Positions 52,815 to 55,093 of a stretch of 64,000 nucleotides of DNA are shown piece after piece. This stretch comes from Acinetobacter rudis (GTDB lineage: Bacteria; Pseudomonadota; Gammaproteobacteria; Pseudomonadales; Moraxellaceae), in contig NZ_JAVIDR010000002.1 of the NCBI RefSeq assembly GCF_031157835.1, positions 62,001 through 126,000 of the forward strand, read 5' to 3'. Made by a program: the position numbers and the translations under genes. Each line of letters begins with the position of its first letter. The first letter of the stretch is position 1. The notes under the pieces are model-generated. The model saw only the letters and a program-made list of their open reading frames with translations. It did no database searches and was not told the DNA's origin.

Positions 52815-52891
52815 AGGCGTGTAGCTCAGTTGGTTAGAGCGCTACGTTGACATCGTAGAGGTCACCAGTTCGAATCTGGTCATGCCTACCA
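52815..52891 (+). tRNA. tRNA-Val (anticodon GAC)
   Basis: A 77-nt cloverleaf with encoded CCA. The acceptor AGGCGTG pairs with CATGCCT, the anticodon loop TTGACAT is on a CTACG/CGTAG stem, and the T-loop is TTCGAAT. A terminator-like hairpin (GCTCACTT / AAGTGGGC, then TTTTTT) follows at 52920-52944. The 3' half borders a prophage-remnant region, so it probably served as an integration site. Confidence 0.96.
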
Positions 52892-52917
52892 AATTTCGTT
52901 GTTAAATCAACATATTA

Positions 52918-52944
52918 AAGCTCACTTTTAAAGTGGGCTTTTTT
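52918..52944 (+). terminator. Terminator after tRNA-Val
   Basis: An AAGCTCACTTT / AAAGTGGGCTT stem with one G-T position and a very short loop is followed by TTTT. Confidence 0.7.
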
Positions 52945-53039
52945 ATTAGGGATATTTTCGGGGTTTATTCGGGATATTAAGTTACTCCTACATGTTGATA
53001 AGTCTTAAATTTGAATTTAATAAATACCTAACAACCACC

Positions 53040-53181
53040 TCATTCGAGGGCTTTCACAATAGCACTATGCTTCATCTGGCATTCATTGTATTTAGCTACA
53101 GCATCAATAGACCATAACAAGATAATACCGCCCTGTCCTGATTCTAATTTCTGTAGATCAGGACAGGGCAGCTTTGGTAAC
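53040..53181 (-). pseudogene. Phage lysis-type gene fragment, copy 1
   Basis: On the minus strand a startless frame encodes LPCPDLQKLESGQGG...LLWSIDAVAKYNECQMKH...ALE and stops. It is a diverged duplicate of the intact 49-codon ORF at 53837-53986 and has the look of small phage lysis (Rz/Rz1-region) proteins. It lacks a start codon, so it is a relic. Confidence 0.55.
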
Positions 53182-53241
53182 TATATGTTAATTACATAGT
53201 TTTTATGCTAAATTTTAAACTTTTAAATTTGAGAAATTAAT

Positions 53242-53733
53242 ATGAAGAAATCAATAATAATTTTAAGTTTAGCATTCACATTATCAGCATGTGTTACTCC
53301 ATATAAAGATCCGAGATCGCCAGATGTACAAAAAAATCAGCTCATCAAGTCTCTTAATGAATTAGTTGGAAACTATAAAGTTGTTGATAGTCGCAATGAT
53401 GATTACAAAAACTTTTCATCATTTAAGATTTCAAATGAAAATAATCAAATGAATATTGAAATATTAAGTTCAAAAAATGAACTTCTCCAATTAAATGGTA
53501 AAGAGTGTATTGGTCGTTACAAGGAGCAAGAGAAAGATGCCTTTGTCATTTGCACTAAACCGTCAGCAAATATTAGTATGTTTACTTTTGAACGTATCCT
53601 AACTGGGGAAAAAATAACAGATGGAGCCATAGTTGGTGGGTTTAAAACACTGGAAGTTAAAAAAGGAGATTATTTGTTAAGTTTTTGGACTAGAAATGGC
53701 AGACCTCATCATTATGTTTTGAATCGACAATAA
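53242..53733 (+). CDS. Putative lipoprotein of unknown function (163 residues)
   Basis: A 163-residue protein with a lipoprotein signal peptide (IIILSLAFTLSAC, lipid-modified Cys at about residue 17). The mature part is probably beta-rich (LVGNYKVVDSRNDDY, GDYLLSFWTRNGRPHHYVL) and has one further Cys pair (GKECIG, FVICTK). No family is recognised. It lies between two copies of the phage-lysis relic on the opposite strand, so it is likely prophage cargo (morons are often lipoproteins). A perfect terminator follows. Confidence 0.65.
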   Translation: MKKSIIILSLAFTLSACVTPYKDPRSPDVQKNQLIKSLNELVGNYKVVDSRNDDYKNFSSFKISNENNQMNIEILSSKNELLQLNGKECIGRYKEQEKDAFVICTKPSANISMFTFERILTGEKITDGAIVGGFKTLEVKKGDYLLSFWTRNGRPHHYVLNRQ

Positions 53734-53775
53734 TCTATTTTAGATTTATAAGATCAAAACAATACAACATGTACA

Positions 53776-53801
53776 AAACCCAGTCATTAGACTGGGTTTT
53801 C
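53776..53801 (+). terminator. Terminator after the lipoprotein gene
   Basis: A perfect 10-bp stem (AAACCCAGTC / GACTGGGTTT) has an ATTA loop and a trailing T. Confidence 0.88.
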
Positions 53802-53836
53802 ATCACTCTGGCCCCCTCAACACCAATTGCGTGTCC

Positions 53837-53986
53837 TCACCTAAGGGCTTTCACCATAGCACCATGCTTTGCCTGATATTCATTGTATTTAACAACGACA
53901 TCAAGTGACCATAGAATTAAAGCACTACCTTGTCCTGATTCTAATTTCTGCAAATCAGGGTAAGGAATATTTTTTACTAATTTCAT
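53837..53986 (-). CDS. Small phage lysis-region protein (49 residues)
   Basis: A 49-codon ORF begins MKLVKNIPYPDLQKLESG and contains LILWSLDVVVKYNEYQAKHG. The ATG directly follows the stop of the holin-like ORF (TAAATG), so the two are coupled. The sequence style (a short protein with a WSxD..xxYxEx..xKHxA core) resembles proteins of the Rz/Rz1 lysis region in Acinetobacter prophages; this is recalled resemblance, not a search result. It has a broken paralogue at 53040. Confidence 0.5.
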   Translation of the reverse strand: MKLVKNIPYPDLQKLESGQGSALILWSLDVVVKYNEYQAKHGAMVKALR

Positions 53987-54205
53987 TTACTTTAGCTCTG
54001 TATTTCTTAACTTTAAAACAACGTATCTTTGCCAAAAAAGTAGCATTCCTGCAAAAATACATATGTAAGTTTTATTCTCAATAGAAAGAGCAATTCCTGT
54101 AAAAATTAAAGCAAATAAAAAAGAGAGGATTAAATTAGTCTTCTGACTTAATGAAGAACCAATTGCCAATTCAAGACTAAGGAGTTTGTTTAATATTTTC
54201 ATCAA
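53987..54205 (-). CDS. Holin-like small membrane protein (72 residues)
   Basis: A 72-residue protein with two predicted transmembrane helices (LILSFLFALIFTGIALSI and YICIFAGMLLFWQRYVVL), a short charged N-terminus and a basic C-terminus. Size and topology fit a phage holin, and it is followed at once by the 49-codon lysis-region ORF. No endolysin gene is present, so this is part of a degraded prophage lysis cassette. Confidence 0.5.
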   Translation of the reverse strand: MMKILNKLLSLELAIGSSLSQKTNLILSFLFALIFTGIALSIENKTYICIFAGMLLFWQRYVVLKLRNTELK

Positions 54206-54460
54206 AAATTATAAGTAAGAATAATTATCAATAATACCAAATAATATCTATTTAAGCTTTCCTAAAATTAACATAATACACCTTATGCGAAATCAATTTA
54301 ACTGTTTATTTAAAATCATATAGTTAATATACACCTAAACGCCCTATTCAAAGTAATAAGGCATTTTTATCCGTTTATATGGTTTCACGTCTACTATTCA
54401 ATCAATGCTCCATGCTTATTATAAAGGCAATCTAAACTACTCAAGCCACCCATCACTCAA

Positions 54461-54622
54461 TCACCCGACATCAACTGCGTGTCTATCAACTGTTTCTGCC
54501 AGCGTTCGATATTCAGCGATGCACTTTTCGAGTATGTCTGAGTTGGTATCGGCGTACTCAATGATGGTCTCACGGGGAGCTGTGGACATATGGCTTTTGG
54601 CTGTATTGAACTGGCTATGAAC
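54461..54622 (-). pseudogene. Third phage lysis-type fragment (spanin-like)
   Basis: A minus-strand frame closed by a stop at both ends reads HSQFNTAKSHMSTAPRET, then IEYADTNSDILEKCIAEYRT and LAETVDRHAVDVG. It has the amphipathic, Cys-containing look of phage Rz-type lysis proteins and no proper start. Longer ORFs in other frames across this stretch are shadows. Confidence 0.4.
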
Positions 54623-54881
54623 CTAGTATTAATAGCATCAACTGACTTCCTTAATTTTAACATTATAATTTTGCTACGTTTTTAATAGTTACTTAGACTA
54701 TTCTTTCGCCATCCACAGATTCATTAAAGCGTAATCTCATATTTTACATTACCACAGATTCGTTCAGGTAATGAACATCCACCCAAAACCAATGTATTAC
54801 CATATTTTAATTCATGAACCATACACCAAATATGTAGAATCAAAATCATGAATTAAATCCAAATATGTCACCTACTCTAAT

Positions 54882-55004
54882 GTGTTATCCGATACGCTTC
54901 AGACCATATCTCTCGTATTATTCTCGCTTCAGTCCTAGGTAAATCTACAACGTCACCAACTATTACAGATGTTAGAATTTTAGCTGACGAGTATTCCAGT
55001 TAAG
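54882..55004 (+). pseudogene. Short coding relic of unknown origin
   Basis: Forty codons open between two stops read VIRYASDHISRIILASVLGK, then STTSPTITDVRILADEYSS. The composition is protein-like, unlike the flanking AT-rich sequence, but there is no start codon and no match I can name. It is probably another prophage fragment. Confidence 0.25.
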
Positions 55005-55066
55005 CCAATACTCATTCTAAATACTCATTAGTTTTACAATTTTATCTGGTTTGGTTTTGTTCTAAT

Positions 55067-55093
55067 GCCTACTATCTTTATTAGATAATAGGC
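55067..55093 (-). terminator. Hairpin after the azoreductase-like gene
   Basis: GCCTATTATCT / AGATAGTAGGC on the minus strand is fully paired if one U-G wobble is counted, with a 5-nt loop. It lies 43 bp after the stop, and the T-tract is weak. Confidence 0.5.

Follow-up and report, generated by a model that had tools for sequence, protein, structure and literature searches.

Genes and features downstream of tRNA-Val(GAC)

The DNA analysed here, referred to as the window, is a stretch of 64,000 nucleotides (positions 62001–126000 of contig C22) from a 3.57-Mb genome in 56 contigs (labelled G000). A tRNA-Val(GAC) gene lies at 52815–52891 on the plus strand (Rfam 70.7 bits), as the first-pass annotation had stated, and the features behind it follow one another, from the Rz side to the tRNA, in the order Rz/Rz1 end, plasmid tail, pdif site, D module, Rz1 end, lipoprotein gene, Rz1 end, terminator and tRNA. 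The interval next to the tRNA (52893–53042) is a leader that contains what looks by eye like a terminator hairpin, and it resembles a prophage junction in the relative G094. The window and that junction are 75% identical over 331 aligned columns, running from the tRNA end past the terminator into the first Rz1 piece, and the order tRNA end, terminator, Rz1 is common to the window and this one relative.

The three lysis pieces of the window, all on the minus strand, are, as judged from sequence, three spanin 3′ ends, none of them complete. Piece 1 (53043–53171) is what remains, at the 3′ end, of a gene for an outer spanin of the Rz1 type; it has no in-frame start codon and is therefore a fragment, not a gene. 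The first residues of an ORF at 53837–53986 come from the flank of a dif module, and its remainder is another Rz1 3′ end (piece 2, 53840–53968). Pieces 1 and 2 agree at 28 of 40 residues, their DNA at 92 of 123 bases, and both match one profile at positions 55–96 of 96, the spanin profiles having been built from fetched loci that included the window. The two diverged minus-strand copies of a small gene that had been annotated at 53040 and 53837 thus both exist and are spanin-related, but the first is a fragment without a start and the second is chimeric. A third lysis-like fragment, placed near 54461, is real as well: piece 3 (54457–54663) consists of the 3′ end of an Rz gene inside which, in a different frame, lies Rz1, the two overlapping frames being those of a spanin pair (phrog_5777, E 2e-14). 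PHROG searches gave phrog_2425 for the second copy and phrog_5777 for 54461–54589, both families of unknown function. An inverted repeat, CCTGAT...ATCAGG, noticed by eye within the Rz1 end, was considered as a recombination signal and set aside.

Between and antiparallel to two of the spanin ends lies a plus-strand ORF of 163 aa (53242–53733) with a lipobox-like LSAC motif, which confirms the lipoprotein gene that had been noted between the two copies. A search of 175 genomes recovered this ORF itself and only two weak matches (E 2e-4 and 6e-4), and the plasmids and viral contigs that were scanned contained no relative of it. In phage lambda, the bor-type moron is an antiparallel lipoprotein gene behind Rz1; the window shows the same arrangement, its ORF being an orphan.

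Relation of the lysis pieces to complete spanin genes

The reading of the small ORFs as phage lysis genes was borne out, and their assignment to spanins comes from their relation to genes of the prophages that G094 carries in tRNA-Val, where the complete versions of the spanin genes are found. In G094, phrog_2425 matches the C-terminal portion of a lipobox protein of 99 aa (best Pfam match LysC, Rz1-like, at a sub-threshold E of 0.011) encoded in out-of-frame overlap with an Rz-like gene, and this pair sits behind an N-acetylmuramidase gene (2.4e-58). The gene matched by phrog_5777 encodes an Rz-like protein and contains, in a different frame, a lipobox Rz1, and piece 3 of the window keeps both frame ends. 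The names Rz and Rz1 were assigned from this gene architecture, no curated family having reached its cut-off. Out-of-frame overlap, a lipobox outer spanin and an adjacent lysozyme are features that the relatives share with the two-component Rz/Rz1 spanins of temperate phages; the window, in contrast, keeps 3′ ends only. Its pieces are homologous to overlapping spanin genes beside a lysozyme gene, and they begin past both the outer-spanin lipobox and the inner-spanin N-terminal membrane anchor that a functional Rz/Rz1 pair has. None of them looks functional, a start or a lipobox being missing from each.

tRNA-Val(GAC) as a prophage insertion site

Among 119 Acinetobacter genomes surveyed for att duplicates (later searches of the genus covered 175), at least five relatives were positive. 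Exact duplicates of 46–51 bp that contain the 3′ end of tRNA-Val(GAC) lie about 37–43 kb away from it in G117, G052, G078, G051 and G094, and a phage integrase adjoins the tRNA in all five (L044, L047, L048, L055 and L081). These observations support the conclusion that tRNA-Val(GAC) is a prophage insertion site in Acinetobacter, and they supply the att repeats and prophages that the first-pass annotation had proposed looking for at this tRNA in other strains. The window segment equivalent to the 46-bp att core, as duplicated in the prophages of G117, G052 and G094, is 52847–52892. In G094, three copies of the tRNA-Val end occur in a row (L050, L051, L081), about 41–43 kb apart, one of them being the whole gene. 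These loci also include a duplicated Rz/Rz1 3′ end behind an antiparallel 392-aa ORF.

The hallmarks of a tRNA-integrated prophage that are present at this tRNA in the five relatives, a duplicated att core and an integrase, were looked for in the window and not found. Elsewhere in the window, 52815–53025 is matched exactly over at most 10 bp on the downstream side and 13 bp on the upstream side, and eight lysozyme, holin and integrase queries against the window returned nothing at E 1e-3, with one 29-residue match at E 0.10. An 8-bp match (ATGCCTAC) between 52882 and 55065 had been offered as a possible att trace. This idea was dropped, and the match attributed to chance, because among 878 stretches of 2.2 kb drawn at random from the window, 463 match the tRNA end over at least 8 bp, and the att repeats of the relatives measure 46–51 bp.

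When 19 tRNA-Val loci were compared, the window among them, 17 were found to have one operon upstream and to share one upstream gene, which we take to be transglutaminase-like, and any downstream gene family occurred in at most five. The phage reading of the region is upheld on both counts, in that similarity to lysis genes is present and the DNA behind the tRNA is non-collinear among these 19 loci. The exceptions to the upstream operon are the window and L081. In the window, the genes at 48000–52800 differ from it and are presumably ncs2 and an adenosine-deaminase-like gene; because of these unusual neighbors, a rearrangement at the tRNA is possible. A short HD-domain ORF lies at 52422–52646 and matches only positions 1–54 of 165 in Pfam HD_3. 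The protein that adjoins tRNA-Val in G021 had no match in the window's genome, in a search run without a positive control.

A plasmid-type dif module between the spanin ends

A 28-bp pdif site that the first-pass annotation had missed is found at 54266–54293 on the minus strand. It consists of an XerC half (ATTTCGCATAA), the spacer GGTGTA and an XerD half (TTATGTTAATT), and departs from the half-site consensus made here by one mismatch in 22 bases. A site with the usual dif spacer, TGTATA, is located on contig C33 of the same genome and is inferred to be the main dif. Involvement of a filamentous phage that uses dif was considered when the XerC/XerD site was found, and was dropped because the flank of the site is that of Rep_3 plasmids. 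This flank (54294–54411, minus strand, about 118 bp) is the tail of a Rep_3/OrfX-type plasmid backbone, of the kind that follows the gene for a plasmid replication DNA-binding protein; together with the pdif site it is 73.5%, 71.1% and 70.2% identical to three plasmids (L177, L178 and L179, respectively), and in the window it is spliced to the Rz end.

On the other side of the backbone tail, the sequence from 54293 to 53969 is the remnant of a D module, 91.1% identical to A. soli plasmid pAS903-1-4 and 90.8% identical to A. portensis AC 877. The similarity ends at 53969, just short of the expected second pdif site, and Rz1 begins there. A second, inverted pdif, such that the XerD halves face inward, is absent from the window; both sites are present in the homologues (L062 and L176). 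Because the second pdif is gone, the second copy of the lysis gene is read here as a chimera.

The cargo of the module is a hydrophobic ORF of 71/72 aa (53987–54205, minus strand), for which homologous modules exist on a plasmid and a contig. Two pdif sites enclose it in A. portensis AC 877 (L062 11162–11189 and 11491–11518), with no other ORF of at least 60 aa between them. On pAS903-1-4 it is again enclosed by two sites in this way, and there it comes after repM and the gene for a replication DNA-binding protein and ahead of brnTA. The ORF was matched in 5 of 175 genomes: twice in the window's own genome, at 93% in A. portensis AC 877 (G138), and in three others by diverged sequences (54–59%), each with internal stops. 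Earlier this ORF had been called holin-like and coupled to the second lysis copy. The coupling exists, since the ORF ends at that copy's ATG, but the holin reading was rejected because the ORF is cargo of a plasmid-type dif module. Its best Pfam match was Sugar_tr (0.015, below cut-off) and its best PHROG match, to a family of unknown function, scored 0.34; it matched no phage sequence, and a scan of viral contigs found no relative. Contig C31 of the same genome (L043, 7523 bases), likely a plasmid, has three good pdif sites whose orientation alternates; one of them is identical to that of the window.

On the plasmids of Acinetobacter, dif modules are carriers of resistance and toxin-antitoxin genes. 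The C and D modules of Acinetobacter plasmids are defined in PMC13141974. With the D modules defined there, the window shares the 28-bp 11-6-11 site, the inward XerD half and a small ORF as cargo. It differs from the plasmid modules in its setting on a 412-kb non-plasmid contig, in the loss of one site and in the broken spanins joined to it on both sides. Further dif sites on chromosomes, and islands of dif modules, appear in portions of PMC6449649 and PMC12907356, and the window resembles the sites described there in having a pdif-like site apart from one with a TGTATA spacer. In the portions consulted, PMC6449649 uses the word prophage a single time, to cite a dif module in a Proteus mirabilis prophage, and leaves the origin of the additional chromosomal sites open, and a term search of PMC12907356 gave no phage, tRNA, lysis, spanin, holin or hotspot words. 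Within the searched text of the open-licence literature, no report linked pdif to spanin genes, which is weak evidence; both terms occur in one review, which mentions them apart, and in a pharmacokinetics paper on an unrelated subject.

Other modules between the same arms

The Rz–tail–pdif junction occurs at four loci. Besides the window, these are positions 14872–15094 of the same contig C22 (82% identity to the window, with a shorter Rz part) and two contigs of G142, namely C127 (81% from window position 54613 to 54251) and C100 (73%, with a decayed pdif). The module between the arms differs, encoding an Mrr_cat endonuclease-like protein in C22, a DUF6984 protein in G142:C127 and the 71-aa protein in the window. 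An Rz1 end follows the module in G142:C127 and, weakly, at C22:13538 (profile E 0.003; 71% over 77 columns). In this way the borders of a non-plasmid module become readable, as spanin ends joined to plasmid backbone ends, and the same borders enclose different modules in two genomes. Contig C1 of the window's genome holds a second copy of the window cassette (84% over 678 columns), in which no pdif is recognizable. In addition to those of the window, C22 has two broken Rz1 ends that lie beside pdif (L112 9529–15100), with a 97-aa ORF and the Mrr_cat ORF as cargo.

Spanin pieces and pdif sites across the genus

Hits at E ≤0.001 in 175 genomes comprised 138 complete spanin units and, confined to 14 of the genomes, 40 broken ones, a count in which 4 of 182 units belong to neither class, short pieces are missed at the cut-off (e.g. 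L115 6900–6965) and some Rz1 hits with a replaced upstream part are taken as full (e.g. G129:C26). Of the 138 complete units, 7 had another spanin piece no more than 8 kb downstream, on their own strand; none had a broken piece upstream or any piece on the opposite strand. Broken units had a spanin neighbor on the same strand in 19 of 40 cases and on the opposite strand in none. The notion that spanin ends punctuate cargo in general was set aside, the 7 of 138 being a minority pattern. Between complete spanins and a further piece (L142, L135, L113, L115) the cargo includes a C5 methylase with an NgoFVII C-terminal-domain protein, an AT3-SGNH acyltransferase, HIRAN and sub-threshold HipA-like proteins, and an HTH-IrrE protein.

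In 40 loci hand-picked for spanin hits, 21 pdif sites with at most 3 mismatches were found, of which 11 lay within 300 bp of a broken spanin, versus 1.85 expected from circular shifts within those same 40 loci; this number was reached in 0 of 2000 shifts. The 11 pairs represent 6 loci in 4 genomes. The XerC half faces the spanin piece in all 11, eight sites being on the 5′ side of Rz1 ends and three on the 3′ side of Rz ends. No pdif was near any of 20 complete spanin units, a comparison that is uninformative since only 0.82 was expected.

Origin of the locus

We consider it likely that a prophage in tRNA-Val(GAC) left its lysis-gene edge in the window, with cargo lodged between broken spanin ends. 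It would have integrated in the 3′ end of the tRNA gene and lost all but this edge; a Rep_3 plasmid piece with a D module and short backbone flanks would once have been joined into the spanin region; and the host XerC/XerD recombinases may later have exchanged the module, a step that is weakened by the finding that the Mrr_cat and DUF6984 modules with their cargo were not found on Acinetobacter plasmids. A deletion would have removed the second pdif and produced the chimeric ORF, and the lipoprotein gene may have entered as an ordinary moron. These events may have taken place in another order.

The near-identity of the pdif–Rz1 arm in two G142 contigs, and the similar arms in C22 of the window's genome, would also suit spanin pieces that belong to mobile dif modules and travel with them on plasmids, but plasmid sequences make this unlikely. 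None of the 23 plasmid records that match the pdif–Rz1 arm covers 80% of it, and in the best 20 of the 23 the match is limited to pdif and a short flank (query positions 5–67 of 197). The tail–pdif arm is matched by 1004 plasmids, and in none of the best 20 does the match extend into the 48 bases at the Rz-side start of the query, a partial test in that the query did not include the Rz gene.

The first-pass annotation had favored several insertions at one tRNA. Three successive prophages, each decayed to its att-proximal spanin end, would be in keeping with the three tRNA-Val ends of G094 and with the two types of spanin piece in the window. Tandem prophages leave a repeat of the tRNA end between them, however, and no att core separates the three pieces of the window, where matches do not exceed the 10 and 13 bp given above, so the several-insertions reading is unsupported. 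Moreover, with the Rz–tail–pdif junction present at three loci besides the window, pieces 2 and 3 are in keeping with a single arm–module–arm unit, and we regard a succession of prophages as improbable. That the host retained the lysis pieces for its own use, or that a lysis cassette survived or was selected, as had also been suggested, is very hard to credit: both cassette copies in the window's genome have an intact 71-aa ORF (4 of 71 codons changed, 2 of them silently), but it is module cargo and not phage, and the spanin pieces, no complete one among them, lack a start or a lipobox, were counted in 14 of 175 genomes and have varied break points.

The preferred reading, one prophage edge with cargo between its spanin ends, accordingly describes a single cargo and docking site at tRNA-Val in place of several dead prophages, and small lysis-type fragments behind a tRNA may mark a cargo site of this sort. 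The first-pass interpretation is thus partly supported. More tentatively, and with the balance somewhat against it, we suggest that in Acinetobacter chromosomes dif modules might use prophage spanin regions as founding and docking sites. A linear Rep_3 piece (backbone tail, pdif, module, pdif, backbone head) would be joined into a spanin gene, its arms would form a socket for XerC/XerD swaps with plasmids, and phages would spread the socket between species. Against a wider claim, 19 of the 20 loci retrieved solely for a pdif site had no spanin piece, and the remaining one had a piece about 840 bp off.

Other observations

Beyond the region discussed, a unit of three ORFs at 55136–57202, which we take to encode an FMN-reductase-like protein, an SDR and a TetR, is also found in G055, and its first ORF has DNA matches in at least three other genomes of 119. 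The first 6000 bases of the window have a G+C content of 25–29%, and the remaining 2-kb steps range from 30 to 49%. In a record named Acinetobacter phage MD-2021a (L011), a pdif at 1866–1893 adjoins a gene annotated as a sulfate transporter, and this record is possibly a mislabelled plasmid piece.
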